Below, in pieces: positions 1,595 to 24,000 of a stretch of 64,000 nt of DNA (its first letter is position 1; each line of letters begins with the position of its first letter). The position numbers and the translations under genes are program-made. Origin of the DNA: Paramacrobiotus metropolitanus (taxonomy: Eukaryota > Tardigrada > Eutardigrada > Parachela > Macrobiotidae). Location of the stretch: NCBI RefSeq assembly GCF_019649055.1, contig NW_026570249.1:868001-932000 (forward strand). The letters are read 5' to 3'. The notes below the pieces were generated by a model. It saw nothing but the letters and a program-made list of their open reading frames with translations. It searched no databases and was not told the DNA's origin.

Positions 1595-3165
1595 TCAAAT
1601 ACTGGTGAGGTTTGCTTTGAGTTCTTCCGGAATGGTGACGTTGTGGTCGACAATCAGCTTGGTAACCATGCGGGCAGTTGACTGGATGTTCTCCATGCGA
1701 TCGACCGCAAATATGACGAAGCCGAGAACACAGCAGGCGAACTAAATATGTAAGTACAGTAATACATACAAGAAGCATCTTCTCCCCTGTGTACTCAAGG
1801 GAATTTCTAAAACATTCATGCCCACACGGGCCATACCAACATCTACATTAATTTTTTTCTGTATGGCTATGAATTGTTAATAATTTCCTTCTATATGTTC
1901 CCTTACTGTGAGTAAGGAAAGCGGTGTCAAATCCATAACGCCACCGGCGGACAATGTTAATCGTTTCGCATGGCCCCGCTCGACCAGGGAAGTCATAATA
2001 TCGTATTCGTCTATTGTCGGTTCCTGAAACCAAAACAAAAGTAATTTGTCAGAATTATTACTGTCCGTTCGAACGAGTGCACTAGCTGCTACATGATACG
2101 TGTTGTCAAATTTTCGCCGAGAATTGATATTTGCGGTACTTAACGGTTTTGCGGGTTTCTTGGCGCCAGTAAACCAGGCTTTCCAGTTTTTCAGCGATCT
2201 GTGTTTGCTAAAATATCGTTGCAGTTATTTACGAATTATGGTTAATTATCATTCATTACGTTAAAGTCAGTGGACTTCAGTACCAGAGCGTAAACCTGCA
2301 GTGGCAGCTTAGCCGCTGACCACAGCTGTAGAATCAAAACTAGCGTCGTTGTGCAATATCGCAACAGACGTCTCGGTGATCCCATACTCGGCACAAAGGC
2401 GAACATCACAAACCACGCAGAGGTCACCATGATTTCAAAACCATTCCCCAGTACCGACACCAGAATCTGCCAGTGCAGTGCATTCTGCACCTCCCTGACC
2501 TTTCTAATCAAATGCTCGTAACCCGCACGCAGCCTAATAAGTTCGTCAATGAAATCGTCATCCGTCCACTTATTGCTCTGCGTCCGCTGAATGGCACGGT
2601 CAATATCATCTGACAAGATTTCAGCTTCTTTGACAATAAAGCAGCATGCGTAGCCAAAGAATGTCTCGCTGATGATGTTGATCATTGTACCCAACCACAA
2701 AGCAATGGATGAATATAAAAGGACAAAACTGTTCGTAGTTTGAAAAATGAAATATGTATTGGGATCACTGTTGAATCCTGGTTCTACAATGATTAACACC
2801 AGCGTGGCCACAAAGCGTGCCGTGACTAACAGAACAAGAACCAGGAAGCGGTACAGCACTCGTCTGGCGCTAGATGGGACAGCCACAACGTGTCCAATAA
2901 AAGGGCTGCGGATGGCCCGCAGCGGATCGGGTAAGCGTTGGATGTCGGCGTAAAATAGCGCGCTACTGAAGCAGATTCCGGTACCACGGAGGAATGCGAT
3001 TTGGGTGTGCATCAGGCTGACCGTTGCTACAATATGGCTAGCTACGGCGAACTGACTTCGCAGATACGTATCAAAATTAGAAATATCACCAAAGTCCAGT
3101 AGAGTAGCAACACAAAACAATCCACTGAGAACGAAAAGACAGCTTCTTTTACTGCAAAAGGCCAT
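1595..3165 (-). CDS. Seven-transmembrane gustatory-receptor-like protein, subfamily A (gene 1)
   Basis: Four exons: 2284-3165, 2145-2207, 1907-2023, 1595-1741, all introns phase 0, about 402 aa. The first exon codes about six hydrophobic segments; the last two complete the seventh (AKRLTLSAGGVMDLTP, then FVIFAVDRMEN). Subfamily A marks are GDISNFDTYL, LMHTQIAFLRG and HWQILVSVLGNGFE. A long N-terminal half, a soluble loop before TM6 and phase-0 introns clustered at the 3' end are typical of the insect chemoreceptor (GR/OR/GRL) superfamily. That assignment is inferred, as the classic TYhhhhhQF motif is absent. The donor after VYAL at 2284 was chosen because all six paralogues break seven residues after the same Pro. 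The frame is open to an upstream ATG at 3294, but the Met at 3165 aligns with genes 3 and 5 and has a good start context (A at -3, G at +4). Ligand unknown. Confidence 0.85.
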
Positions 3166-3846
3166 TATGTAATCGAGAAGCTTAATGACTGTATTAATGA
3201 CTGTATTAATTAAAAGTGGTAAATTGGGGTTATGTACATAAGATTCCGGGGGTGGTATCTGCAAAACGTTTGCAAAGTTGCTTGCAAAGCGCACTGGTTG
3301 TATGCTTGGTACACTTTATTGACAAGTGAAACGGAAAAATTCAATGCTTCGCTAATTCTCGACGATGAATGTCATTCATCCAAATTTTGCGAGACAGGTG
3401 TCGCAATGCGGTACCAGACGTCATTTTTGGCAGAACGTCAAATGGCAAGGTTTACTTCGTTAGTTATTGAGAAACTGATCCCGGTGGTGTCATTGTGGTA
3501 GTTTGTGAGTTTGCAACTGCACTGTACGAACTACGACATATCGGATATCTTACATGTACGGCGGTTTAATTAAAGGAGCTTTATCAGCTAGCGGATACGC
3601 TTAATGCCGTAAGAGAGAGAAAATAAAAATACACTGTGGTAGCGCTCCAACTACAGATTATGTGAAATCTTTCGTTGAAAAACTTTAGATGCAGTTAACA
3701 AATTAAAAGCAAATCAGCTTTAGTCATATCTATATTCTCCATGCGTACAAGTTTAAACCCAAGTGTCCGACCAATTCACTAATCGGCATTCGGCACTCAT
3801 TCAACTTTACAATCGCAAAGTCCGGCTAAAAAGCAGCGGCAACTTT
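3166..3846. other. Intergenic, receptor gene 1 to gene 2
   Basis: This is the 5' flank of receptor gene 1 and 3' flank of gene 2. An upstream in-frame ATG for gene 1 lies at 3294. A short exact direct repeat (atgactgtatta, twice) sits at about 3185-3208 just upstream of the preferred start. Nothing else is recognisable. Confidence 0.5.
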
Positions 3847-5487
3847 TTAACAATTTATCAAGTCATTATCGTCTTGTGAATGTATAACAGAATAGCTTTC
3901 GATGCGCTCGATGATGAAGCAAACGAATCCTGCCACCGAAACAATGGTCTAAGAGAAAAGTTAGGTAATTAAACGTCAGCATATTATTGTATTTACGTAT
4001 TTTTACCCACTGCTTACCGAGATGACCGTGGCTCGATCAATGCCAATTATTTGTCCGGCACAAAACGTGAGGTCACTGGATTTTACTTTTCTGTCCAAAG
4101 TTTGGGTGACATCCACCTCGGTTACGGATGCGATATACTGCAAGTACCAGTTGTGATCAGAGATGATACGGTTAAAAGAGATGCGGCAGTGCAGCATACA
4201 TCGTACGTAGTTCTACGAAAGCGTTTACTTCAGGTTCACCATAACTTATCCAGATTTATTTAAATCAAACCTAGAATCTTTGCAGAAGTTATATTATTTT
4301 CACCTTTTTTCTTTTAGCTTGTCGTTGATACAGGGCCTCATCCACCAACTCTGCTAACTTATCGGGCTAATGTAGGACAAAAGTATCCGTATTAACAATA
4401 ATATTTTACGATCATCAGTTCATGTAACGAAGACCATGCAGTACATTGTAAATTTGTAACGTCTTCGTTTTATATGCACGAATGTTCGTACCATGTAACT
4501 AAACTTCAGAGGCTGTGCCACAAGGTAAATAAGCCGAAGAATTGTGCCTAATAAAGTCATCAGCATCCTTGCAGTTTTATACTTGTTTCCAAAAGTCGGT
4601 AACGCGACCCACGAGCAAAACCAGGCAATCACGACCAAAACTTCGAAAAGGTTCCCTGCGATATCAATCAGCAGTTTGCTGGAGAACGTCTTCTGCATCC
4701 TCTCGAACATATCGCATAACATCTCATGCTGTCGCCGTATATGCTTCAGCTTATTCGCGAATTCATCCGTTGACAAGGCGGCTGGCGCGGGTTCATCAAG
4801 CAGCTTCTGAATATCTTCAGCACAAACTTCAGCACAATCGTTGAGGATAGCGCATAGATAATAAAACATTGTCAGCAACGGGAGATTAATCCACGAAGCC
4901 AGAATGACCCAAATGTAAATGTACGCATTGATCTGCCACACATAAATGTAGAAGAATCCATACGGCACCCTCTTGTACAAGTTATCCAGATTTTCCAACA
5001 TTCCCACAACCAATCGAATTATGCACGATACTTCCACAAAGAGAAAAAGAAGCTGCCCTCTTTTAATGTGATGGATGCGGCGATTCGCCGGAATCTTAAA
5101 AACATCTGCGCATTTCAAGACAAAATGCGCACACGCTACCATTTCCTTTCCATGCCGCATGCTGAAGATGCATGATGCGGCAGCGCGGAAAAAAGTTGTC
5201 TGACTGGCTGCAAAACCGATTATGACAATGATCGGATTAATGCGGCCATATGCCGGGTCCTTGTCGCGACCTTGTAAGTGGACTAGATCGACGAAGTCGA
5301 GTATGAAAACCCACGTAAAAACAGCAGTTATGGCATAACCGGTACATCGCGTGGAAAAGTGGGATGTTTTTGATAAAAGTGATTCCTCATCACGGACGGA
5401 AGAAGGAGATACAAAAAGGCGCAGAAATAAGCGACCCGGATAAGGAGGTCCTTTACGCAGCCGTAGAACATCTGAACCTTTCCGCAT
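3847..5487 (-). CDS. Seven-transmembrane gustatory-receptor-like protein, subfamily B (gene 2)
   Basis: Exons 4492-5487, 4304-4366 (63 nt), 4018-4137 (120 nt), 3847-3948; all introns phase 0; about 426 aa. Subfamily B marks: DKDPAYGRINPIIVIIGF followed by AASQTTFFRAAAS, then SSKLLIDIAGNLFEV and FCSWVALPTFGN before TM6. The small second exon gives ELVDEALYQRQAKRKK, which aligns with the corresponding exon of every other member. The third exon carries LTFCAGQIIGID, the counterpart of LTFSAGGIFDLT in gene 3, and the last ends FIIERIES. Compared with subfamily A the N-terminus is longer (about 45 residues before TM1). Presumed plasma-membrane chemoreceptor or ligand-gated channel; that function comes from the fold family and not from any motif seen here. 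Confidence 0.85.
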
Positions 5488-5922
5488 TATGATCGATTCA
5501 TCGCATTTTCATCGCTTCAGTTAAAAACATGATGTGACCTTTTTCGTTTTGACGTTACAAACCACCATCAAATCTCAAAAGCTGTAAGTCAGGTGTTACC
5601 AAGTCTTTAAAGAAAAGCTATTTATTCTATGAATCTTTACTAAATATTACGGAAGTGCTTTAGTAATATTCTTTGTGAAACTCGTATTCGAGATAATTCA
5701 AGCTCTGTTTGCATTTAGCAATAGTTGCCATTCGATCCAGCACAGGTGAATCTGACAGTGACAACCATTCTTCCCCAACTGTCAAAATTAATGACTTTCT
5801 CTGCCAAACAAGCAGAATTACTAAATGTACTTCAGTACTTGCATTTTGAAAATGAATACGCGCGTGGCAAAATATCCGATCCGCACACAAGGTACTAAGC
5901 TAAATCCGTCAATACAAGAAAG
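5488..5922. other. Intergenic, receptor gene 2 to gene 3
   Basis: 435 bp between the start of gene 2 and the stop of gene 3. One small minus-strand frame at 5660-5890 shows no recognisable protein features. No repeat or RNA gene was seen. Confidence 0.5.
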
Positions 5923-8419
5923 TTATGTAAATCCTGTCTTGTTGTGACCGATATTAAGCAAACTCGAATTCCTTGTGCTCCCCGACAAGTCGGTAACTTT
6001 ATCCATTATCGAGTCCGTGTTTTCCATGCGATCAACCGCAAAAATTAGGAAACCCAGGATACAGTAAGCCATCTGAAATGCAGGCATATGTGTACCAAAG
6101 CAAAAATTGCAATAATGATGTAAGAGTTCTGTACCGTCATTGTTGAGTACGGAGTCAAGTCAAATATTCCCCCAGCAGAAAAGGTCAAACGTTTGGAGTA
6201 TCCCCGTTTGGTTACGGACTGCAGCAGCTGATATTCTTCCAGTGAAGGTCCCTAAAACAAATAAAGTACAGATCGACCTTACGCTTAAAACTGGTAACGA
6301 GGTTGAGGTGATGCCAAAATAAACGGATTTACCTTTATTCGCTTTCTTTGTCGCCAGTAAACTAGTGTCTCAATTTTTTCCGTAATTTTGCATTCCTGTG
6401 GAGTAAACCATACAACTTTTTCTGTTTGCGTTTAGAGCTTAGACATTTTGCGTACTGGCAAATGGTAATCGACCGAAGCGAAGCGAAGGTCCTCTATGTT
6501 CAAGATAACAGAAGTTTTTGTCGGTCATGTCGGTCACGCAATAATCTGTCCGTCGGTCACGCTGCTCACGCACTACTAATAGCAGAAAACCTATAATATT
6601 ATTACAGAATGGTAAGTATTAGTAGAGCTGGTTCACGGCGCTGCTGCCGTCACTCGGCTAGAATAAGACGTTACGGCAACACATAATATGGTTAAATCGG
6701 GCGCGGTACATAAGCACCATGCTTAGCCACAAGGCCCTTAACGTAAAACTCCAGCCGGGTGACGGCAGCAGTGCAGGGAGACGATTCGGGTAGACTGGTT
6801 TTGCCCCCTATATTATGTGAAAGCATGTGTGTTTTTCACTGTTGTGTATTTACTAAAACAAATTGGCACTGTAAAAATTTGAAATTTGTTGAATTTTGTC
6901 AACGTGTGTGACCGGCAAAAATGTCCCCCGTGTCCCCCCGGACATTCTTGCTGTGTCCCCCCTGCCACCATCGCCAAAACGGTAACCCTTTGGCCAGAAT
7001 GGTGACACAGGGGACTTACAACGAAAAGCTGAAAATCAGGTCACTCGGTGACCTTTAAAGAACCGCCACCAGCGTTACCACAGCGTTACCAGTCAAAAAT
7101 CAGTGAACGACAGCAATTACGGACTGGATATTATTGCCGAAACCAAATTATTGGTGTCCGGCATGGGGGACATTATTGCATTACAATAATGCACTTTTAA
7201 ACTAACACAACTTGATAATCTTTATCATCTTATGCTTTATACGTGGACCTGTTTTATCTGTGGAATTTTTGTCAATATTCTTCCCTAAAATGCTCTACTG
7301 TAAACTTTCATTCTGAGACTGTTGACAAATCATTCCAACTGCATAATACAGGCAGCAGATAAATTATCTGCTGCACATTTTAATGTTGACTAGAGATATG
7401 TGAATTTAAAATAGGACGAAAATTCGTAATACAGGATAAGATTTTGTTCAGAATGGAGCATCTTACGGAAATTTCTGGCTTCGCTTCGGTCTTTTAGTGC
7501 TAGCCTGCAGCGGTGCACTTCCCTAGTAATAGTTTACCTTTTTCCACATCAGACACGGGAAATGCAGCATCGACCAGAGTTGAAACAGCACAAGCGGCAC
7601 CGTTAAACAGTATCGAATGAATCGTCTTATCGAAAAGATTTTGGACATGTAGGCATAAATAACGAACCACGCAATCGCAACGATTAACTCCAACGAATTC
7701 CCCATAACCGATATCAGAATTTGCCATTTGACACAACTTTGCAGCATAACCACGTTCTTGGCAACGTTTTCATAATGACTTTGAATGTCCAGGACAGCTT
7801 GGTAAAATTCATCGCAGTTGTATAAGTTTTGCATGGTAGCAAAGGTGTCCTTTTCGATATGAACAAGCAGTTCGTCGGCTTGGTTAACCAAATCAGCAAA
7901 ACAGTAAGAGAACAAGACTTCTGGAATGATGGTGGCCAATCCAGCCACAAACAGGAGAAACGCCCAGTAGCATAAAATCCCAATGTTGCTGATGTTCAGA
8001 ACAAAGTACTGGGTGCGGTCGTAAGACGTTTTTGATTGGCGAGTGGCCAGTATTGTCATCGCAATGAATCGCACGCTGACCAGTACGATCATGACAACAA
8101 ACCGTTTAGCCAAAAGTTTGCACATGGATTGATCTTTCGGAAAGCACTCTTTCAGTCTTAAGTGCAGAGGAAGCAAGAGGTTTTTGATTTGATTATACTG
8201 CCATACATTAGCCAGGCAGACAGCTGTTGCACGAACGAGAGCGATTTGGGTGTACATTAAACTCATCACCGCAAGGACCGGACTAGCGCCGAGGTATGAA
8301 TCCTTCAGGTATGTATCGAAATTCTTCAAGTCGCCCACTTCCATAATGGTAACAATCAGTAAAAACACATTGACTGTGGCCAAAGCCATTCTCCCATGTG
8401 AACTGCACATCTTTGCCAT
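5923..8419 (-). CDS. Seven-transmembrane gustatory-receptor-like protein, subfamily A (gene 3)
   Basis: Exons 7538-8419, 6333-6395 (63 nt), 6135-6251 (117 nt), 5923-6072; phase 0 throughout; about 403 aa. Exon 1 (294 codons) is exactly as long as in gene 1. Marks: GDLKNFDTYL, LMYTQIALVRA, KWQILISVMGNSLE; third exon SKRLTFSAGGIFDLTP; last exon ILGFLIFAVDRMENTD. It is the closest relative of gene 1 in the window. Its first intron (6396-7537, 1142 nt) is about ten times longer than the same intron of its paralogues (62-125 nt) because it holds a transposon-like insertion. The frame extends upstream to an ATG at 8509, but the Met at 8419 fits the family and has a good start context. Confidence 0.86.
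6471..7491. mobile_element. Non-autonomous DNA-transposon-like insertion in intron 1 of receptor gene 3
   Basis: The two ends carry a perfect 14 bp inverted repeat, GACCGAAGCGAAGC at 6471-6484 and its reverse complement at 7478-7491. Removing the 1021 bp between them leaves an intron of about 120 nt, close to the 62-125 nt of the same intron in the five paralogues. No long open frame lies inside. An internal inverted repeat (about 6641-6660 against 6754-6775) suggests further secondary structure. No clean target-site duplication is visible, so the class is not assigned. A related end sequence recurs at 43738-43761. Confidence 0.6.
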
Positions 8420-9202
8420 GATACAAACCGATGGCCTTGTTACAATTGTTGTTAATTTAATGGTGCATTGTAACGTGCTTACCGGATCGTAACTTTGCAA
8501 AACATCCACGAACTGACCACGAGTGCAAATGCCGCTTTTATGTATATATTTATTGTGCGCTTAGTCGCTGTACAACGGTAAACATTTCTGTTAAGTGTAC
8601 ATTTGGGAAAAATTCAGCATCGACACTGTTACTTAATTTCCCCAGAGAAATAGCACCAAATACGCTAAATATCTCCACCATCTCTGCTCTCTTATCACAA
8701 GAAAACACCTCACAAATTAGCGAATCAGCAAAACAAAAACGTTTCTAACGCGATACCGACACATTCATTTTTCTCTGCTAAGAGGATCGTTGTACAAAAG
8801 TAAAACACATTAATAATCATAAGATTGTGTACTGCAGAAACGTAAAAAATCAAGTGCAAATTTATAGACCCTTTCGTCTTTATTTCACTCCATAGAAACT
8901 TGAAGTTGTTAAAGAAATCACATGCGTCAGGAACCAGATAATGCATAGTCTTCTATACACAAGGTTGTTTTATTACGAAGCGTATTTTCGAGATCTATAC
9001 CAAGAGGACACGAAGCATTGTTCCTTTGTGTGAGATAGCATTTTCGCAGTTTACCTGTGCGTTGCAGGTTAAGCAAGCAATGCCCTACGAATACCGAATA
9101 CAGTAAGTACATGTTAGGCTGCGCAAAAAAATGCTACAGTATGCAATGCGTAACATTGCATGCTACTGTTACGAACGCATACGAACCATAACCCGGGAAC
9201 CG
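8420..9202. other. Intergenic, receptor gene 3 to gene 4
   Basis: Holds the 5' flank of gene 3, with a TATA-like AT stretch on the minus strand near 8541-8548, and the 3' flank of gene 4. The short minus-strand frames at 8725-8946 and 8927-9112 have no recognisable features and I do not call them genes. Confidence 0.45.
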
Positions 9203-10812
9203 TCAAGATGATGTACTTGCGTTGTTGTGCCACACGGGATCATCGAAAGGTGTGGAATTTTCGATACGCTCGATAACGTAGCAAAAGAATGCAAGCAAAC
9301 AGAATGCGCCCTGCAACGAATAACAAATCAATTAGGCCATGCTGAAGTTATTTTGAGGATATTTTAGCGAACTGCACAAACACTTTGCCACTGACCTTCA
9401 AAGCCGCGCCAACGTTCAAAGGCAGGACATCACCAGCTGTTAAGGTCAATGAGTTCGATTTTGTCCTCCGCACGAAAGAATCAATACATTCCATCTCTTT
9501 GATGGTTATATTCTGTAAAAGTTCAGTACTGCTACACAGGGACAAATTTCTCTTCTTAAAAAGTATCACACAGTAAATTTTGTGTTGTACTCATAAATGA
9601 TAATAGAACAGCGGCTGAAGCGTGCTCCGAATAATGGAAAAATAATGCAACCTTTGACGTACTATACGTTTCTTTTGCTCACGCTCCGAAATCTTTTCAG
9701 TTATTTCCACCAATCTCCTTTGCTGCAAAGAACGAGGGACATTATGAACGGGGGTCCCAACAACAATGTGTAGCAAACAAGTGATTCAAAAACGTCATTA
9801 CCATCAGGCTTAATTTGATAGGCCCATATGCAGTGGTGATTAACGTAATCACTGCATTGATGCCGTACAACGCCACCCGGCCGGCGCGCAAAGGTTCCCC
9901 AGAATCAGGGACCGATAGCCACGTGCAGAACCATGACATAACGATCATTAACTGAATGCCAGGAATGAGTGACTGGATTAACGAAATTTCGCTGAAAGCC
10001 TTTTGAGCAGCAGCATAAAGTTCAAGAAGTTTCTCGTATTTGTACCGCACAACAGTGAGCTCTTGCATCGCCACGGTTGATTTTTTGTCGCTTCTATCAA
10101 AAAGACCGACAAGATCGCTATGGACTGTGCTAGCATATTCCGAAATCGTGATACCAGCGTTGAATATCAGCAGTACAAAGGGAAAGTTGATTATTAACAA
10201 TGCAGCCTCAACGGAGAATATGTAACACTGCAGTGCTTTTATCGGGATTCGCCAAAACGCGTACGGGAACAATCCATCTCGTCCATAACGTGGTTCATAT
10301 TCCAGAATACTGACCACTGCGTAAATAACGCTGTTTAGCACAATAAAGCAATATAAAAGGAGACATTTTCGTCTGAGATACTTTGTACAATTTGGCTGTG
10401 CAAACAGCAGTTCTTCTTGTGCATCAGTGATGGTCAGCAAGCAAGATTTGATGCGCCATGATCTAATAACCAAAATCAGTGCTGCGGCTGCCACATGGAA
10501 GAAGCACACTTGACTAGCTGAGAAGCCGATCATAGTTATTACGATGTTGATCTTTCCGTAGGATGGATCCCGTGTCATACCGTGAACGAAAATATCCATT
10601 AGATCCAATAGGAAAATTGTGATCATTACCAGTATTACAAGGCATATTAGAGGCTTTCTTATGAATTTTGTTACATGACGCTTTGAACACACTCCGGGGC
10701 AATGGATCTCATAATCGGTGCCAATGAAGAATCGCAAAACCTGTCCTCCTGGAAGCTGTTGGTAATAGTTCGCGATATGCGCCGAAGGAGAAGACAAGCC
10801 GGTATCCTGCAT
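9203..10812 (-). CDS. Seven-transmembrane gustatory-receptor-like protein, subfamily B (gene 4)
   Basis: Exons 9802-10812, 9663-9722 (60 nt), 9396-9512 (117 nt), 9203-9310; all phase 0; about 431 aa. Subfamily B marks: TRDPSYGKINIVITMIGF followed by SASQVCFFHVAAA, and FCTWLSVPDSGEP before TM6. The exon breaks after KLSLM as in gene 2 (KFSYM) and gene 6 (QVSQL). The third exon gives SLTLTAGDVLPLNVG and the last CYVIERIENST, matching gene 2. It has a long N-terminus of about 55 residues before TM1. Same inferred role as the other members. Exon 2 is one codon shorter than in genes 1, 2, 3 and 5. Confidence 0.85.
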
Positions 10813-11476
10813 TTTGGTTCCAGTTCTTTGTCTCGTGCATGGAATTTTGTCAGCAAAATTTAATCTTTCCGAACCACTGTACCATTAAGATTATTTTTAC
10901 AGGCGTAATTTTTACCTAGTTATCAGTATATCACAACCGTATATTAGCTATTGTCAACGCCAACAGCAGCTGCCAAATCACTTGCAGTGTCAAACGTATG
11001 AATACAGTGGCAGTTGTACGAGGACAAAACATTTAAAATTCTGGCGTATTTTGGCCTACCCAAAAGTCCGTGGGTGTGTTGTTTGCTCATCTGTTTTCTA
11101 AACCTTTAAAATTTGCAGCGTAATAGTAGGAAACTTCTTATCTGATGGGCCCGGGACCGGCGACGATATGTTATGTGCCACGCGTGTGTCTAATTTAGCC
11201 AATTAATTTTGTATAAGCACTCGTAATTGGTTGAAGCAGCAGCACTGCAAGCAGCTCTCAGCATAACATTACGTACACAGATTTTCAGCACGCTGGTGAT
11301 GAATTCGTAACTAGAATTAAATGCAAGTGTGTTGGTAAGTATAGGCTGTATAGCTACTCGAAGCAAAAAAGTCATTTGTTCACACAAACAGGAAACATGT
11401 CCCTGGACCATACAGTATAAGAACTGCTGTGGCAATCATCTCCAACAGAGCAAAACTACAATATTATTTTGGCAGC
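10813..11476. other. Intergenic, receptor gene 4 to gene 5
   Basis: 664 bp with no convincing frame. It should hold the promoter of gene 4 and the 3' UTR of gene 5. Short frames on both strands (11190-11435 and 11329-11565) overlap each other and lack features. Confidence 0.45.
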
Positions 11477-12953
11477 CTAACCAGTCGTTGAATTATGGTT
11501 CAGAACCGGTCGGACGTTCTGCATTCGATCCACCGCAAAAACAGCAAAACCAAGAATTCCCATGATTATCTACAAAGACAATTTTTGTTGCAACGAAAGG
11601 TCAGCAATTACGAGTACATATGCGAGATCACGAGCTGGTCGGCAGATTTTCTTTGACTCCATACCGTAACAACAGCGTTGAGATCGAAGTGAACAATCCC
11701 ACCAGCGGAAACAGTCAGACGCTTACTATGCCCGCGCTCAGCCAGTGATTTCAGAATATTATATTCGCCAACTCCAGGATCCTACAAAAAGTTTTTGAGC
11801 GTTAACAGTTGTTACTTTAACAAAATTCCAGACGAATACGGCGAAAGCAGCCATACAAAGCACAACAATAGCAAAGCACAACATACAATACACTCGATCT
11901 TCAATCAAAACAGCGAATAGAAGCATACTGGCGCACCGCCGCTTACAGTCTCTCTAGTCTGTTGCCGACAAAAGACGAGCACCTCTATCTTTTCAGCCAA
12001 GACGTGTTCCTGAAACATGGGGACTATGCTAGTTAAGATTTAAAGGATGTCTAAGAAATACTGCTGTTCGTTTGTGATGTGTGTTTAAGTACCATTTTAT
12101 AGAGACTGATGGGGATATCCATAACATTCCACAGCTGGACAGCGAGAATACCCAAGGTCATGCTGTCGCGCATTAAACGGTAAATCATTTTCTCTTGTGG
12201 TGCAAAGGCGTACATGCTTAAGGATGCAATGACGCTAAGTGCTTCGAAAACACCGCCCACCAGGGAGATCAAAATTGGCCAACCGAAATTGTTGCCGATT
12301 TTATCTACAGCTTCGATAACGGTTTCGTACTGATCTCGAATACCAATGACCTCGGTTGAAAATTCGTCCCAACTCCACCGTGCCTCTTTCATCGCCTCGG
12401 TGGTTTTTGTCACGCGGTTTTCAAAATTTTCAGCCAGTTCTAATGGAGCGCAGCACATACAGCAGAATAAGCATTGAACCACAATGTCGAAGAGCGAACT
12501 GACCGCGATGATCGACGACGCATAAGATCGGATGTTTTGCACGGTAACAACGAAAGCAGAGTATGTGCTCATTTCACTAGCTAAGTGGCTGTATATGACG
12601 AAACATGACGCCAATCGCAGAATAACTAATGTTAGCATTATGGCTAGCCGGATCAACATCTTAATCGGTTCCCGATGCGTGCCCCGAAAAGCGCATTTCG
12701 CTGCATTGAAATAATTCGACTTGAAGTATGTGCTCAAAAGCAAAGCGAATAGGCGGCTGTACGAAATCTGGCTATGAATTAGGATGATGGATGCCACTAA
12801 AGGACTTGCTTCGGACAGATTGACCGACACATACTGCGAGAAGTTATCCATATCCGAGAAGTCCACAATCATGGCAGCGCCGACGATCACAATAATAAAC
12901 GTCTTGAACGCCCTTAACTTGCTGTCGGGGAAATGACTTTGGGACTTTGCCAT
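11477..12953 (-). CDS. Seven-transmembrane gustatory-receptor-like protein, subfamily A (gene 5)
   Basis: Exons 12093-12953, 11947-12009 (63 nt), 11665-11781 (117 nt), 11477-11569; phase 0; about 377 aa. Marks: SDMDNFSQYV, LIHSQISYSRL, GWPILISLVGGVFE; exon 2 EKIEVLVFCRQQTRET; exon 3 SKRLTVSAGGIVHFDL; last exon ILGFAVFAVDRMQN. It is more diverged than genes 1 and 3 and has a shorter tail (30 residues in the last exon). The Met at 12953 aligns with the starts of genes 1 and 3; the frame also allows an ATG at 12986. It is divergent from gene 6, with about 670 bp between starts. Confidence 0.84.
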
Positions 12954-13627
12954 AACTAAGCCGCTTAGGAATGCTGCAAGAGGCAAAATATTACAGAGCT
13001 CTGTACTTACGTACTAGAGAACTGTGCAAGTGCATGCGTAAGTCTGCACTATAAGTGTAACAGTTTTTAACACTCTTGTTACTTTCGTCAAATTACCGAT
13101 ATTACAAGTACTGCAATGCCACCTGAACCTAGTTGTCACAAGTTTCGTGCGACCGAGTGATCGGTAACGGATAACATGCTTGACAGGTGTTTCTTTACAG
13201 GTTCCGGAGATGCAAACCACAAAATTGTATTCGTATCAGCTACCCTTAATGGCGAGGTCTGAACGCTCAAAAAGAATTTAAACATCCTAATGACAACAAC
13301 AAGCATTATGCAGAATATTTAAATCAAGTTTTGGTTCCTATTTGTACGAGTATTTTGTGACTATGAGCCATCTAATTTTGTGCACGAGACGATTTCAAGG
13401 CGATATACTCTGTACATATCGGGTGTGGACACTGGAGAGCGTCGATAAACATGAACGGAAACTTGATTGTGGGAATAAATAATATGAAAATGAAAAGAAA
13501 TGCAGTGCTTACCTTCGATTCCATTGAGTCACTGACTGTATATGTCAGACCAATTACATTAGACATTTAGCGGCATCAGCAAATTAGAGCGTGTGCTAAA
13601 TGCTAACATTACCGAGAAACGATTACA
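12954..13627. promoter_or_regulatory. Putative shared divergent promoter region of receptor genes 5 (-) and 6 (+)
   Basis: About 670 bp separate the two divergent start codons, and no other gene is visible between them. It contains one copy of the recurrent octamer TACGAGTA (13345-13352). I see no clear TATA box at a useful distance, so the promoter role is positional inference only. Confidence 0.35.
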
Positions 13628-15034
13628 TTGCCGCTTCTGGTTACTGCTACTGGTTACCTTTGCTATGATCCGTTCTTTGCTTTGCTTGTTTCAAAAATGC
13701 ATTCTGCCGGTGAAAAATATCCATACAAAGCATTCCTGGGACTGTTTTTGGACAGTGGTCTCCCCGTTAACCGGTGTGCGCAGAAAATGTTGCGAGCGTG
13801 TGGGTACGTAGTGATCACGGTTCTGGCTGTAGTTTTATTCCTGGACATTGCAGATTTGCCAGTGGAAGGAAGCAATGAGTCGTACGGGCGGGTAAACGTA
13901 ATTGTTGTCATGATATCTTATGCGTCCACGCAAATCACGTACTTGACTGCTCTTACTTCATCTATATACGCTATTGTCAGATCTCGCCAAATTGGGCATT
14001 GCATTAGTTTTGCTCTGCTTACCATCTCGAAATTTGATTCTTCGAAAGATCGCTTGACTAAGTACACCCAAGCCCGGGTTATGCTGGGAATCTTGATTAC
14101 ATTGGAAATTTTTCGCTTAGTGTTTGCGTTATTAGAAACCACGGAAGCTATTTCCTCCACGGTGGATTCGGCAACGTTCTTTAGTGTTTCACCATACTCA
14201 TTTTTCAACATCACGAACGGCGCAAGAACAATTTATTTATACACTTTGACATTGTTAAGTGAAACTGTGAAATTTTCCTTAACGGTGTTATTTATATTTA
14301 CATGTTCCATTCTTGGAAACTGCGGTCGCCATTTGCTTACTAATAATTCAAATGTTAGTTGTGAAGCAGCGATTCTCGAGGGAAGCTCAGAAGTTTGCAC
14401 AGAGGTGCTATTTAAATTACGCTGCAGTAGCGGTATGCTGTACGATCTGTTTAACGAGATCCAAGATGTTTTCGGTGTCAAAATGTTAATCGACCTAATG
14501 GAAGCTGTCTTTGAGATATTCGTTGTGATTTCATGGATTTGTTGTTGCATAGCTGTGCCCTCCCTGGCACACAGTTTTCGTACCGGTCGCATGATTGTCA
14601 TCTTTGTCAAAGCACTCTGTCATCTCGGTTTTTTAGTACACGAGCCAATGCAAGTCAGTCAGCTGGTAAACAATTAATCTGGTAAGTCACCATTGATAAA
14701 TCCTTAAAACTGGCTTTGTTATTGCAGCCACACCAGCTCTTAGTCAACTGGCGGAAAATCTGTTTTGCACGCCAGCAGTGTATCAGTCAAAAAAGAGTAA
14801 GCAAGCAACCTTTAAGGCTGCAAAAATCTGGAAGTGATAAACCACAATTTCCAGGTTGGGATCACCTGCGAGGAAATGGACATAGCATATTCTACAGAGC
14901 AGCTACTTCGTAAGGAAATGACCTTTATGGCTGGCCATATGGCGTATCTGGATTTGTCAATGATTGCTTCGGTTAGTAATTTTTGTGTGCTACCTGCACA
15001 AACACAACCCTATCACCATATCGATAATCTATAA
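13628..15034 (+). CDS. Seven-transmembrane gustatory-receptor-like protein, subfamily B (gene 6), missing the last exon
   Basis: Exons 13628-14665, 14728-14796 (69 nt) and 14855 onward, the first two introns in phase 0. Subfamily B marks: NESYGRVNVIVVMISYASTQ, GVKMLIDLMEAVFEI, CCCIAVPSLAHSFR. Exon 2 (KICFARQQCISQKR) and exon 3 (KEMTFMAGHMAYLDLSMIAS, homologous part ending at 14971) match the paralogues. At the usual splice site (14972, GTTAGT) no fourth exon is present: only 83 bp remain before the P-glycoprotein start at 15055. Read-through ends at a stop at 15032-15034 after about 20 unrelated residues, giving about 428 aa without the second half of TM7. Either the gene is 3'-truncated and possibly non-functional, or its last exon lies further off. 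An alternative start is the Met at 13697. Confidence 0.75.
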
Positions 15035-15054
15035 TTCCTGAGCCGCGATTTAAA

Positions 15055-18000
15055 ATGGATCGTAAAGAGGAAGAGGGTGCTTCAAATGGGACAGCAGGAA
15101 GATCCTCAAGGGGCCATGTTAACGGCGCATTTGTGCACAGCGGAAGCACCGATCAGCTCGTCACAGACGATACCACTTCCTTGAGTGACCATGAACTTGA
15201 CACGATGCAAAATGGCCAATCATCTGTGACGGTCGGGGTCAAACCAACTTCCACGTAAGCTTTCAGTTCGTTGTATATGTATATTGCATTATGGGAAACT
15301 TCGGCTGAAATGGAAGAAAACTTTGAGTTTTTTCAAGTTACTTTGCATGCTTCAAAGTAGTTCTCAAAGCTAAAACTGATTTCGAGTTACAACTGACCTC
15401 GATGTCAACAGTGGTCACTTAGTGTCATACGTAAATTGGTAAAACCATGCAGGTATTAATATGGAATTATTACGAACCAGTTTGCCGGTTCATATCAAAA
15501 TTCAGTATTCAGTATTTTCAATGATTTCCTTGCAACGAAAACCCAGACTTCGTTATAATTATCTTGTATTACGTACGTAGTGTAAGTTAATCCAATTTTG
15601 TCCAAGTACAGAGACATAATTCTTCTCCTGGGGTTTAATTACTTTGGATGCAGAGGAAAATTTAATTTTTAAATTTATTTTACATGGATGGTGCGCTAGT
15701 AAATATGAATGTAACGGTGAAACAACTGATTAAATATTGATACTAGTTATTACTAGTTTTACAACTTTTTATTAGTAGAAGTATGATAATCCTACTGATT
15801 TTTAGCTTTTTTGCAAAGTACGGCGCAAACTAAATGAGAGTGTTTAAAACAATTTTGATTGCGAGTAATACTTTATTCATTAGTCGACCAACATGAAGCA
15901 AGGATATTATTCACAAATAAAATATTGTTTTTCGGTACAGTACTAAAAGAGCGTAGTACGGTATGCCGTTTAGAAGAGAAATTTAAAGGCAAAGTATTGA
16001 TCTGTGGGATCGCATCGGCTCACCATGAGTGATTCAGAAACCACAGCGGCACAGCCGATCGGCTGTCGTTTGTACCTAAACATCACGGCTGATCTAATCC
16101 TCCTGGAGGAAGATGGGCGCTTCAAATGGGTTCATTTTATGGACTTTAGGTCGTGCTCAGTGGCAGCGTTTACACATCCAATCTGCCACAAAATCCATTG
16201 GAAGTTGTTGCTTTTCAGTGCCTAAGCGCAAGCCCAAACACGAAAATAATTAATATTACTGTATTTGAAATTAGAAATTTTAGCTTTTATCAAAAGGAGG
16301 GCTTAAAAGCAAAGCGCAGAGCGTATCGACCCTGATAACAGGTACCCGATTTTCTGTTATTATGGTTAAGATTTTATTATTGTTAGAATACAAGTCATCT
16401 GGCTGCAGAATGTCATAAAATAAAACTAAAAATGTGTTTGGGAGTGCGCAAAAGTTAACTTTTCGTGCATGTACACGAATTTGGTACCTTGTACCGGCCC
16501 ACTTCCTTAATTTGACCGGAGCCATAACCCGAGTGCTAACGTTAGTTCTGATCAAAGTGAAAACCTGATTGTTGATCTTAGTTTTAACCATAGTCTTAAC
16601 CCGAGTGCTCATGTTAGTGTTGTCGAAAGGCTCCTTATGTGTTAGTGTTTCCTTAAGTGGAAGTGATAATTTATTGATATTTTAGAATTCTTTGTAAGCA
16701 TGTTTCGGTAGGACAAAAACGGTCCTTGACTTTTCATTTTAAACAAAAAATAGTTTTGTAATGCTTCCATTGCTGGTCTGAAAGTGTAACATATGGAAAA
16801 GTATCTGAAAAAAGGTTCATTTGTTATTTGGTCAAAATAGAAGTTAGTACGAGCGAGAGAAATTCATCTTCAATTCTTCTACTTAAACGAGGCATATGTC
16901 GATATGTGGTACCTTTTACAATTCACAAAATGTTTCACACGCCAGTCAGATTCTAACAATAATAAAATCTTAACCATAATAACAGAAAATCGGGTACCTG
17001 TTATCAGGGTCGATACGCTCTGCGCTTTGCTTTTAAGCCCTCCTTTTGATAAAAACTAAAATTTCTAATTTCAAATACTCTAATATTAATTATTTTTGTG
17101 CTTGGGCTTGCGCTTAGGCACTGAAAAGCAACAACTTCCAGTGGATTTTGTGGCAGATTGGATGTGTAAACGCTGCCACTGAGCACGACGCTAAAGTCCA
17201 TAAAATGAACCGAATTGCGTGAATAGCGCCCATCCAATCCCTCCAGGAGGATTAGATCAGCCGTGATGTTTAGGTGTCGTTTGTGAATTGTGAGTCAACC
17301 CATGCAAGCTCGCAAAACTGTCGTTGTAATCGTTTGTTGTTATTTCCTCATGTTATTTTGAGTCAGCCTGATAATCAACAATCCTTGCAATGTAGTCCGT
17401 CACTGCGATCTCCTCCTGCCGATGCGCAGGATCTTTTGAATCTCGTCTCGATTTATTATCTCATGAAATTAGAATCTCAGTAAAATGCGTCGTTATGTAC
17501 CTGTTTCACGTAGGCCACCGGATGAAGAGGCCAAGAAGAAGAAAGACGAGAAGGACGACGCGGAGCCTAAACTGCCGCCGGTTCCGTTCTCCACCTTGGT
17601 GAGAACTGAATATCCTCGAGTATTTATCGTTTTCCCTCACCTGTTTCGTTATGGAATTGATAGTTCCGCTATGCCACATGGGTGGATGTCGTGCTGATGG
17701 TGGTGGGAAGCCTGTTTGCCTGCGCGACGGGGCTGGTAAGAAAGCGTGACGAACGCTCACGAACCGTGGAAAAGTGCTGTCTGCATTTTGGACGGTGTAA
17801 ACGGGTTCGATATTTGCAGGCATGGCCTATGATGAACGTTGTCTTCGGTACGCGGTATAAGCACCTACACTGTCAGATTCAATTAAATACAGATTGCTCT
17901 AAAAATCATTGAATCTTACAGTAAAAATTTAGAATATCATCACGATGAACCGAGTCGGAGCGTATATGTTTGCTGAAAAGCGCCTTGAATAAGTCTTGTA

Positions 18001-21000
18001 TTAATTGCGGTTTTTTATTCTTACTTGTTAGGGGATATGACGGATTTATTCAGTGTGGGCGAGGGAGGTATGTGTAATGATTGTGGTATGATAAAACCGA
18101 ATCTTCCGTTGGAAATAATTGTTTAACGACGGGATTATTGCAGAAAAATGCTGAATTGCAGAATTTTCGAGGCGATTATTTTTTACTTGTTTTTTCTCTC
18201 GTTTTTTATTGTTAGGTGACAGTTCAGTATTTTTAATGATTTCTGTATATTTTGGTAAAATAGGTGAACAACGAGCAACGGTTTACCTGGTTAAACGTCG
18301 CAGAAGGTTTATGCTTATTTCGTTGTTAGGAATTCCTTCCGGTGAACCGAATACTACGAGTTTTCCCATACTACCAAATTCATCGTTTTCCCCGATAATT
18401 CCGTCGGCGACGTACATGGAGGAGCAGATCAATAAATTCACGTACCGCTATCTGTACATTGGCGCGGCATCCTTCGTGGCCAGCGTATTTCAGGTATGGC
18501 CGTATGGGGAACAACGAGTGTTTACATTCTTCCCCCGCATTAGATGACCTTGCTTATACAGCATTATTTACTTATTATTTACTTACAATATTTCACAGGT
18601 GGCCTGTTGGGTTACCGCCTGTGAGCGTCAGATTCACAAGATGAAGTGAGTGCGCAGCCGTCCTAAGTATACTTAATTTGCAAGATTTTAATATTTGCAA
18701 ATTTCAGAAAGAAATTTCTGCACTCTGTACTGCGGCAAGAAATGGCATGGTTTGATACCCATGAAAGTGGATCACTGACAACACGTTTATCAGAGTAAGT
18801 AACCGGGTCCGGGATGGTGATAGCACCAAATTTATCTGGCTTTGATTATTTTTGGTTGGAATGCATAGTATTGGCCAATAATTAAACCAGCAATCACTTA
18901 AATTAGTACTTTGTAATTTATTTGACTTTTGGCGATATTTGCTGACTGATAAGGCAACCAGTGTTCTTACAAATGCACTGCTTACCGGCTTCTTCAGTAC
19001 AGGTATTACCGTTTCGTTGCTGATAACGCTGAGTAATTTGATAATTATGTAGAACAGCTTTTTTTCTAAACATTACATACTTTTTGTATTTTATTTATTC
19101 GAGATAAGCTATTACAGCAAAAGCTCGCTGGCTGAATGGCACTCAGGTCACTCAATACAAATCTTTTAACTTTATTGCTGTGATCTTTTTAAACCAGGTT
19201 AAAATTCTTGAACCGCTTTGATTAATTTGTATAGCTTTTCCAGGTTAAATAAACCAGTAAATGTGACTCCCTAAATTCCTAACGAACAATAAGAAACACC
19301 TACAGGTCTGTACTTCGGTACTCGTATTATCTGGATTATTGCCGGGCCGGGCCAAGATCCCTTAAGGATTTTACTATAGCTGTGTAATTGTACTCTTGGA
19401 AGTTTGAAAATGACCCACGTTAATACCGCAGAAACGGGATTTATAATACCTAGTTATTACGCAACAAGTACCACAACCGTTTATGACGAGTCTACAGTGA
19501 TACTTGTGTGATGCAGCGATATGGAACGAGTGAAAGATGGTCTCGGTGACAAAATGTCCTTTGCTCTTCAAGCCTTTGCCCAGTTTGTCGGAGGTTTCGC
19601 CGTTGGTTTTTATAAAGGATGGGATTTGACTCTGGTTATGTTATCCCTGGTTCCGTTTTTGGCCATTGCCGGAGCTTTTATTAGCAAGGTATATGTGTCG
19701 GCGTGCTACGATGCGCAATTTCTTCAGTTTGAGAATATTTAGCCTGATTTGCATACATTTTGTTGGTTAGCTCGTCAGTGAGGCATCCACTCGGGAACAG
19801 GAGAAATACGTGAAAGCCGGCGCCATCGCTGAAGAAGTACTGGGATGTATCCGGACTGTGACGGCGTTCGGAGGACAGCGGCGAGAAATTCGCAGGTGGA
19901 GATTTTTCTCAAGCTCATGTGCTACTGGTCAAAACGATGACCTCCTTTGTACTTGATTTAGATACGATACGCAAATGGCAGCAAGTGAAAAGTTGGGAAT
20001 TAGGAAGGCCTTCGTCACTGGCATTGGACTGGGCGCTGTATTCGTAATTATGTATGCGACATACGCACTGGCTTTCTGGTACGTTTACCTCTGGTTGTTC
20101 GTTAATTACGTAAGAAATCATTTATGAATTAATTTTTTAATTGTTTAATCGTTATCATTTCACTAATAAGTAACTTAACAAACTTTCAAACTCTACACTG
20201 AGCGCATTTTGCAAAACGTGGATACACATTTGTGGATATTCATTTCGACCAAATGATTTCTACAATAACATTTTTCTAATAATTTCTAGAGTACAGTATA
20301 CACCTAAAACTCCTTGATTATTTTATTTTAGTTTTGATGGTGTCAATGTAGTTTGATGCACTACCCTGCTTGTTTAGCTGCATACTATTGTTTGCATCCT
20401 TTATAACCTGCGGTAGTATGTGCACTTTTTGATTGTCGACTTGTTAGTGTTATTGTCACTTTGCTGAAGTTGATAACGCTTTTTCTTGAAGGTATGGCTC
20501 GACATTGCTGGCAGCCGTCCCCAAGACCAAGACCGTCGGTGAGATCTTCACAGTGATCTTCTCCGTCATCATCGGTGCATTTTCAATCGGCATGGCTGCA
20601 CCGCACTTGGCCACGATCGCCACCGCCAAGGGAGCAGCGGCAACCATCTTCGAGGTCATTGACAGTGCTCCCACGATTGATTCCTATTCGGATGCCGGCG
20701 CCAGGCCCGACAAGTGCGAAGGACGCATCGAATTCCGGAACATCAAATTCCGGTACCCTACCCGCCCGGATGTGGAGGTGCTGAAGGGCGTTAACGTTGC
20801 GGTGAATCCCAATGAAACGGTGGCCCTGGTGGGTAATAGTGGCTGCGGGAAGTCGACGCTGTTGGCGCTGTTGCAGCGCTTTTATGATCCGGAGGAAGGG
20901 CAGGTGTTGCTGGATGGGCGGGATATTCGGGAGCTGAATGTGCACTGGTTGCGATCCAATATCGGCGTGGTACGTTTGTAACAACAATAATTTGTATTCC

Positions 21001-24000
21001 TATTTGTTACAGTAGGAATAATTGTTGGGGATGCTTGTTTCATCGCCATAAATATTATAACATTCAGGGATAAAAAGGAAATTAAGTTTCACTTTTTACG
21101 GTTACCTGTCCTGTAATTACTGTACTCGCTTATCAGTTCACATACATAACGAGTAAAATTGTTTTCTATTAATTGCCAGCTGTTTTGTTATTTTATCAAT
21201 TATCCTTCCGAATGGAGTTTTTCAACTTTTTTCTTTGGTCTACATTGCACGTTGTGTTGCTACTTTGATTTTTAGAATACAACACTGATATGTGAAGTAA
21301 AGAATTGTTTTTGTAGTGTTTATATTGTCCAGGATTTTGTATTTTCTTGTATCGATCAGGTGGGACAGATGCCGGTTCTGTTTGGATTGACCATCGCCGA
21401 GAACATTGCCCTGGGACGCACAGTGACCGAAGACGATATACAGCGGGCCGCTCGTTCGGCGAACATCCATGATTTCATTGTCGGTCTACCGGATGGTTAC
21501 AACACCATGGTCGGAGACCGTGGAGGTCAGTTGTCCGGAGGACAGCGTCAACGTATCGCTATCGCCCGCGCCTTGGTAACTAACCCGACCATTCTTCTGC
21601 TGGACGAAGCCACGTCGGCGCTGGACGCCGAATCCGAGCATCTGGTGCAAATGGCTATTGATAAGGCACGGGAAAATCGCGCAACAATTGCTATTGCCCA
21701 TCGTTTGTCTACGATTCAAAACGCCAGTACGATATATGTTATGGAAAAAGGTACGCAAAAGGAAAACTGATGGAAGTGTAAATTAAATTATGTTTTTTCT
21801 CGGTTCGTTGCTTAGTTATTTTATTATAGTAGTTGTGTAAATTACAGAGCGTATTATGAAAATTAAAATAAAATTGCTTTAAGTAATTAACAATGTTATA
21901 TACTGTATGTTAGGGCAAAAAAAAGGGAAATGAAGAACAGAAGGGAAGTTTAAATTAAATTATGTCGTTTTCCGTTATTTACTGTAGTAGTTACAAATTG
22001 CAGACATTACACTATGTACTGTAATACCATCAAGAGTGTACCTTTAAAACAGGTCATGTGGCCGAACAAGGAACCCATGAAGAATTAATTTCTCAGAAAG
22101 GCATCTATCAGGAACTGGTCAGTCTCCAGCGCATTCATCGCGCCGACGCTGTGACGCCAGAGCAGGCCAAAAGCCAGCAAGATCTGGAGGAGGAATTCCA
22201 CGCAGAAACCGATGCCAAGAAAGTAGCTATAAAACGCCAGAAATCGATCAAAGCCGCTAAGGAAAAATCCAAAGACTCCTTGGAGGAAAGGATGAAGGAG
22301 CTGAAAGCGGAGGAGGCGGAGGCGCCGACATTTTTCCGCATGCTCAAGGAGAATAGTCCCGAGTGTGGCTGGATTGCTGCCGGGACTCTGGGCAGTTTGA
22401 TTCTGGGCACGGCAATGCCGGCCTTTTCCTTGCTCTACAGTCAGATGTTCGAAGAGTTCAGCACAACCGATCAGGAAGCATTGAAACGGGCTGGCGTGTT
22501 TTGGTCCTGCATGTTTTTGGTTTTAGGAGGTTGGTCAGTCAGGCACTTGCTTTTTCTGCACCAGTGCCTTTTATTGGTTTTCCGTTCAGTTGGGATTATT
22601 ATAACAGAACGTAGTGAAGGTTTTTTGTAGTTCATTTAATTTTTAGAATATTTCTAGAAGCGAAACAAACCATTTGCTGCTTTTTCAGCTGCTAATTTCA
22701 TTGGTCATCTACTGCAAGCCGGAATGTTTGGTACCAGCGGTGATAAGATGACGCGCCGTCTTCGCATTCGAAGTAAGATTACCAGTCGTATTACTTTAAC
22801 ATCAGAATGCAGTACCATCGAATTGACCCTGATGTCTTGCAGCATTTGAGAATGTTCTTCGACAAGACATGGCATACTTTGATGAAGAACGCCATACCAC
22901 CGGGAAACTGACCACACGTCTGGCTACCGATGCTCCCATGGTCAAAGGGGTAAGACTTGACAGAATTGTGGAAATTTGGTGGAAGACTGCATGTTGAGTA
23001 TATTCTTGTAGGCGACAGGATATCGCTTAGGTGTTTTGGTCAACACCGCGGTTGCCGGGATTGCAGCCATTGTTATTTGCGGATATTTTGGTTGGCAATT
23101 GGGATTGGCCATTATCGGCTGTGCCCCGGTTCTGATCTTGGCCGGCGGCATCAGCATGAAACTGCACACCGGTGACCAGCAGAAAGACACCAGGGAATCC
23201 GAGCGAGCGGGAAATGTACGGTTCCATTAAATTGGTATTGTGTAGTTTAAACTGTTTAGTAGAATTTTTACTTTCATATTTCATTAGTTAAAAAGACATT
23301 GTTCAAAATCCGCTACGTAAAATGATTATAATTTAAGTATTGAAGAAATAATCAAAATTGTATATCTTCAAAAACAATTTTGTCCAAAGATGTGTATTAA
23401 AAAGAAACAGAAATATTTGACTATTGTTATAGTACTTAAGAGTTTGCTCAGTGTAGTATACCGTGTGTATTTTCGAGCTCGTTAGTGGTGCCAGTTTATT
23501 TTGGATTGCTTTAGACAGCGGCGGAATCCATTGAAAATATTCAGACGGTGCAGTCTTTGTCACAAGAACCATATTTTTACGATCAGTATTCGAAGTACCT
23601 GGAATTTCCTCACCAGACGAATCTGCGCCGAAGCAAGGTGTATGCCGTGGCCTTTGCATTTTCGCAGGCCGTTATTTTTCTGCTGTATGCCGGGGCCTTC
23701 CGTTTTGGATACTACTTGGTATCGATTGAACAGATGAAGTTTGTGGATGTTTTCCGGGTGTTTTTCGGGATTGCCTTCGTAGCAATGACCTTCGGACAGA
23801 TGACGTCAATGCTGCCGGATTATTCCAAAGCCAGAATATCGGCCGGTTTGATTCTCAAAATGATGAGTCAATTGCCGCGATTCGACGTGTACAGCACTGC
23901 GGGAACACGTCCGGTAAAATTTCGTTAGTTTTAATATGGTTTCGATATTTAACCGCATTGTTAAACAACTGTCTTTGTACCGTTAAAAATTTGGCAAAAT

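Follow-up and report, generated by a model that had tools for sequence, protein, structure and literature searches.

In the gustatory receptor (GR) family, part of the superfamily that also holds the odorant receptors (ORs), the C-terminal introns are of phase 0, and one of them stands six codons upstream of the motif TYhhhhhQF in Daphnia as in most insect GRs, according to one account (PMC2680840). The same account describes the Daphnia pulex Grs (7tm_7, PF08395) as many genes in tandem arrays, and the carbon dioxide receptors Gr21a/Gr63a as a precedent for two GRs working together (PMC2680840). Here we describe six seven-transmembrane (7TM) receptor genes of the tardigrade Paramacrobiotus metropolitanus in which two subfamilies, A and B, strictly alternate; like the Daphnia Grs they are arrayed in tandem and have the 7TM fold, phase-0 introns and the six-codon rule. 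The genes lie in a window of 64,000 nucleotides (contig C29, positions 868001-932000 of a 169.8 Mb assembly), and positions below are those of the window unless another contig is named. Alternating arrays that arise by copying of an A+B unit are known from the major histocompatibility complex class II alpha and beta genes, whose products are obligate heterodimers; the tardigrade array resembles them in its alternation, but the best-supported branch orders of A and B disagree between genes of the same index. Among titles and abstract openings we recognised no other alternating chemoreceptor array, which does not show that none is in print. The arrangement is new, but the receptors are of a known kind.

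The six genes fill positions 1595-15034 in the order A1, B1, A2, B2, A3, B3. This strict A-B-A-B-A-B order, proposed in an earlier note on this DNA, is borne out by the gene models and by a tree of 28 rows that includes relatives from the genome, in which A1-A3 lie inside one clade (support 100/99; present in 99.9% of 1000 bootstraps) and B1-B3 inside another (99/98; 98.8%). Protein identity, taken over more than 200 residues, is 31-37% among A proteins, 24-27% among B proteins and 19-25% between the two; A3 and B3 gave only short, weak matches to each other. Forcing neighbours together as sisters was rejected by the approximately unbiased (AU) test for the two pairs tested (A1+B1, p 2.9e-6; A2+B2, p 9.1e-6), and adjacent genes therefore belong to different subfamilies, as had also been claimed. 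The motifs put forward to tell the subfamilies apart are broadly there, but not in every detail: A2 has MYTQI and not H-T/S-Q-I, the VIERIE given for B1 and B2 is found in B2 and reads IIERIE in B1, and the LTFxAG of the B genes takes the forms LTFCAG, LTLTAG and MTFMAG. As a mark of A, SAGG fails genome-wide, since two relatives outside both clades (L010 and L011) carry it and the A gene on contig C35 does not.

All gene models are predictions without transcript support, built by hand from splice sites and reading frames. Five genes lie on the minus strand and have four exons each: A1 (1595-3165; exons 3165-2284, 2207-2145, 2023-1907 and 1741-1595; 402 amino acids), B1 (3847-5487; exons 5487-4492, 4366-4304, 4137-4018 and 3948-3847; 426 amino acids), A2 (5923-8419; exons 8419-7538, 6395-6333, 6251-6135 and 6072-5923), B2 (9203-10812; exons 10812-9802, 9722-9663, 9512-9396 and 9310-9203; 431 amino acids) and A3 (11477-12953; exons 12953-12093, 12009-11947, 11781-11665 and 11569-11477; 377 amino acids). 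The stop codon of A2 is at 5923-5925; the trees use a model that reaches only to 5950. B3 (13697-15034; exons 13697-14665, 14728-14796 and 14855-15034; 405 amino acids) is on the plus strand, opposite to the other five, and stands head-to-head with A3, their start codons 743 bases apart. The first intron of A2 (6396-7537) is 1142 bases long; the remaining 16 introns measure 58-166 bases. Inside this long intron lies an imperfect inverted repeat of 44 bases (6633-6676 and 6736-6779), possibly an insertion.

Introns, fold and profile matches bear out the earlier assignment of these genes to the insect chemoreceptor superfamily. All 17 introns are GT-AG and all 17 are of phase 0; in each of the five four-exon genes the last exon starts exactly six codons before the motif of S7b, and B3 carries the first two C-terminal introns only. 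Exon 1 of A1 and of B1, which encodes the S1-S6 part, was modelled with AlphaFold on the basis of the six window sequences alone; the mean predicted local distance difference test score is 80.3 and 80.5, respectively. Compared with solved structures, the A1 model has insect GRs and ORs in all of its top 19 rows (Z 15.7-18.2, the next at 10.0) and the B1 model in all of its top 20 (Z 17.4-21.9, then 6.6). The best match of A1 is BmGr9 (Z 18.2; 254 residues, 3.4 Å) and that of B1 is AgamOR28 (Z 21.9; 289 residues, 3.9 Å). To the BmGr9 structure 8vc2 the S1-S6 fold is alike in both (Z 18.2 for A1, 20.9 for B1) at an identity of only 8-9%. A profile of the six array proteins reached Gr64a in the PDB at an E value of 0.0067. 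By itself, Foldseek gave B1 a best E of 2.9e-5 and A1 a weak 0.048, the latter a point against the placement.

The 7tm_7 profile (PF08395) is matched over its cut-off of 26.6 bits by two B relatives located on C35 (53.3 and 33.3 bits); L010 (23.3) and B1 (14.0) score below it, and there was no match for A1, A2 and the C35 A gene, or for A3, B2 and B3, which were scanned with their first exons only. Across the assembly the scan returned 60 7tm_7 pieces, 32 of them over the cut-off, and six 7tm_6 pieces, four of them over. An assignment to the odorant receptors, considered because of a weak 7tm_6 match of A1 (20.5 and 23.3 bits in two scans, below the cut-off of 25.8), was dropped after the 7tm_7 matches of the relatives; B1, A2, B2, A3 and B3 gave no 7tm_6 match in the Pfam scan. 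The insect odorant-binding protein family PF01395 had no match in the assembly, in a search that had no positive control. We place the genes in the GR/OR superfamily as GR-type receptors, in a clade outside the canonical GRs because the TYhhhhhQF signature is absent.

Where arthropod GRs carry TYhhhhhQF, the array genes have (G/A)Fhhhhh(D/E)R, and the replacement is found in all five four-exon genes. With a slash between the first six residues of the last exon and the S7b motif, the A genes read GFhhhhhDR (A1, FACCVL/GFVIFAVDR, 1595-1741; A2, MAYCIL/GFLIFAVDR, 5923-6072; A3, IIMGIL/GFAVFAVDR, 11477-11569), B1 reads GFhhhhhER (TIVSVA/GFVCFIIER, 3847-3948) and B2 reads AFhhhhhER (GAFCLL/AFFCYVIER, 9203-9310). 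These nine residues align with TYLVILIQF of BmGr9, with Q replaced by D in A or E in B and F replaced by R in both. In BmGr9, Q443 turns toward the pore on opening and F444 forms a hydrophobic plug, and in MhOr5 the response is lost when the corresponding Gln is replaced by Arg or Ala (PMC11100771); the array genes differ from this gate pair in carrying D/E and R. Other receptors of the same genome retain TY (for example TYLLVIYQT).

The charged form [GSA][FY]hhhhh[DE]R, in which h also counts G, S and T, was found in 29 last exons of the sampled DNA, five inside the window and 24 outside it; the relatives with it include L001, L003, L004, L007, L009-L012, L014, L021, L024-L027 and L032-L035, and some relatives have EQ, EK, DE, NQ or DG at the gate pair. 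In a tree of 41 rows the charged-gate clade of 30 rows is monophyletic (92/95; 92.4% of bootstraps) against 11 other receptors. The clade sample was picked by similarity to A and B and is no census, and the 11 outgroup rows are single reading frames without later exons, seven with a TY or SY last exon and four (L036, L037, L038 and L040) that gave none. Within the clade, 24 of the 30 rows have the charged form (L022 and L027 counted from gene models and not from the motif scan); the six others are L008 (NQ), L013 (DE), L028 and L029 (EQ), L005 (unreadable) and B3 (no exon). From these sequences we infer charged residues at the gate position in this clade: its signature would have changed from TYhhhhhQF to GFhhhhh(D/E)R, and the gate would carry an acidic ring and an arginine ring. 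No description of a charged form was recognised among titles and abstract openings of the literature on TYhhhhhQF variants.

B3 departs from this pattern. Its reading continues past exon 3 to a stop, and the last exon, which would encode the S7b pore helix, was not found by an exon-4 pattern scan of the plus strand from 15000 to 23000; the scan recovers the last exon in all five of the other array genes, and elsewhere the pattern occurs at one chance place in 35 kb. Spliced alignments as far as 18600 extended the model by no more than short fragments that lack the motif. B3 could be either a disrupted gene or one for a shortened subunit. Between its stop codon and a reading frame beginning MDRKEEEG, perhaps the first exon of a downstream gene, there are 20 bases.

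Relatives elsewhere in the genome were sought in whole-assembly searches with A1, B1, A3, B2, B3 and four relatives as queries (A2 was not one), and the matches were modelled with a small spliced aligner; counts of places are lower bounds. Outside the array the searches located at least 18 A-like places and at least 6 B-like ones. Of the A-like ones, several are broken and most sit on a distant A branch, close A relatives being found only at C35 and C3. Outside the array, A and B adjoin once and are intermixed once. On C35 an A gene (606975-608458, plus strand) adjoins a B gene (about 610315-612227, minus strand), and a further B-like gene (C35:534k) lies about 72 kb from that A gene. On C22, five A-like places (two broken or fragmentary) and one B-like gene stand in the order AAAABA at 376-402 kb. 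Among the matches listed, the B-like genes at C153, C82 and C27 have no separate A-like match on their contig, and no separate B-like match accompanies the A-like ones at C3 (two, both broken), C54, C66 and C39. A-like genes also form runs, four consecutive genes at C54:428-440k and three at C66:224-230k. Several places are A-like by search match alone and stand outside the trees (C54:428k, 436k and 439k; C66:180k, 224k and 229k; C22:381k and 386k; C39; C3:1185k). The expectation that relatives would be paired genome-wide did not hold, most places having no partner found nearby. The two copies on C3 (L005 at 1305k and L006 at 1185k) contain frameshifts or stops, and L005 falls together with the A gene of C35. 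About 16 kb to the left of the window, the receptor L001 (C29:849-852k) belongs to another clade, and the alternation is not extended there.

The most likely and most economical origin of the alternation is the copying of two-gene A+B segments. From an A-B founder, single-gene tandem duplication with each copy beside its parent yields only A...AB...B, and two copies of an A+B segment give alternation at once; segment copying is favoured because single-gene tandem copying cannot give alternation, and because A and B also adjoin at C35. In the history that we propose, segments with an adjacent A and B gene would have been copied in tandem at least twice within an old cluster of GR-type 7TM ligand-gated channels of two subfamilies, and one such A-B pair would have been copied also to C35; later B3 would have been inverted and have lost its last exon, and single members would have spread elsewhere alone. 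By analogy with BmGr9, the array proteins would be tetrameric ligand-gated cation channels: in each intact protein a ligand bound in the S1-S6 bundle would gate the channel, and the pore helix S7b would come from the last exon. The joint account, with an old cluster, paired-segment copying, the change in B3, tetrameric channels and an altered gate, is the best explanation that we have, and we judge it somewhat better than evenly balanced.

Several results weigh against this account. The repeated duplication of an A+B unit, as the earlier note had it, is plausible given the alternation and the C35 pair, but it is unproven, and the favoured branch orders of A and B differ when genes are paired by index. 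A1 and A2 are sisters relative to A3 in 98.4% of bootstraps of the 28-row tree, in 97.4% of those of the 41-row tree, which has further receptors of the genome as outgroup, and in 92.6% when the A and B trees are built separately; B1+B3 has 79.4%, 81.8% and 68.3% in the same three data sets, and B1+B2 has 6.6%, 13.7% and 20.9%. Same-index congruence of A and B is present in only 7.1% of bootstraps (28-row) or 13.6% (41-row), and the simple unit (A1B1)(A2B2)(A3B3) is not favoured. The AU test rejects none of the B pairings (B1+B2, p 0.13; B1+B3, p 0.13; B2+B3, p 0.21); the proposed match of branch orders has little support in the bootstraps, but no B pairing stands refuted; in A, A1+A3 has p 0.042, A2+A3 is not rejected (p 0.12), and A1+A2 alone has p 0.55. 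None of the three data sets settles the branching within B; L013 and B2 are long branches, B2 inside the B clade of the 28-row tree. Units taken with an offset (A2-B1, A3-B2, C35A-C35B) agree between A and B in 78.5% (28-row) and 78.7% (41-row). L006 (broken), L018, L023, L030, L031 and L041-L044 were left out of the trees, as was L026 from the 41-row tree, and in the row L021p two adjacent genes at C45 are joined into a chimera.

Further points on the same side come from the array as a whole and from C35. In the best tree neither A1-A3 nor B1-B3 forms a clade of its own, and the array is therefore no simple recent amplification; forcing the members together gave AU p values of 0.21 for A1-A3 and 0.095 for B1-B3. 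A repeat search found no non-coding similarity between the array units, the longest direct repeats being exons. The C35 pair is tail-to-tail, not head-to-tail. The 41-row tree joins the A group of C35 to A2 and the B group of C35 to B1, as sisters, in 67.2% of its bootstraps. Within the array A2 and B1 lie side by side; this is weak support for copying as a pair, because five of the nine possible A x B combinations adjoin in the array. The analysis covers one genome and no other species.

The main rival to segment copying is rearrangement in an old cluster, in which single-gene duplications, local moves, inversions and losses left A and B interleaved as a by-product. We hold this to be a real possibility, though not one that we would favour. 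Three A and three B genes can be ordered in 20 ways, two of which alternate perfectly, a 10% chance under random order; B3 is inverted and its last exon was not found, the array members are not mutual closest relatives in the best tree, the order at C22 is AAAABA, and B and A members are scattered singly over several contigs, all as rearrangement would have it. However, this history requires more events than two segment copies, and the C35 pair would have to be a second coincidence or a separate move of a pair.

The earlier note went further and suggested that A and B products could be obligate partners whose genes stay in step because they duplicate as a pair. Strict alternation, the second adjacent pair at C35 and the existence of heteromeric GRs (Drosophila Gr21a/Gr63a and Anopheles Gr22-24; PMC2680840) are consistent with obligate or preferred heteromers, and A is not in excess if the count is restricted to its nearest relatives (C35 and the two broken copies on C3). 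Yet outside the array at least 6 B-like places face at least 18 A-like ones, most without a partner found nearby, and the S7b exon of B3 was not found. The gates of A and B carry the same charges (D-R and E-R), so there is no electrostatic complement that would favour mixing, and BmGr9 is a C4-symmetric tetramer (PMC11100771). Obligate partnership is not supported, with relatives mostly unpaired and AAAABA at C22, and partnership of either kind, obligate or preferred, seems to us very improbable. The same low standing applies to a more specific version, in which paired A/B subunits would make a new sort of GR channel whose closed pore is locked by D/E-R salt bridges between subunits that the ligand breaks. 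An assembly artefact, with alleles or paralogues falsely joined, is hardly credible, as the window contains no N and identity within the subfamilies (24-37%) means that the genes are not alleles.

The rest of the window holds other features. At 16280-17059, one 33-residue peptide closes two reading frames, one on each strand, which suggests an inverted repeat and perhaps a transposable element of small size. By eye, we take the reading frame at 1-850 to be a putative SENP8-like gene, those at 20-25 and 38-45 kb to resemble an ABC multidrug transporter and a trefoil-containing alpha-glucosidase, and those at 46-48, 51-54 and 56-58 kb to resemble PrimPol, FOXRED1 and a rhomboid protease, all putative.

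Should related species bear out the paired copying, the array would offer a natural set of subunit pairs to consider for GRs. The more unusual feature, and a more testable lead than the array itself, is the charged S7b signature. With D/E-R in place of Q-F, predicted charges at both gate positions would permit a direct test of the gating model.

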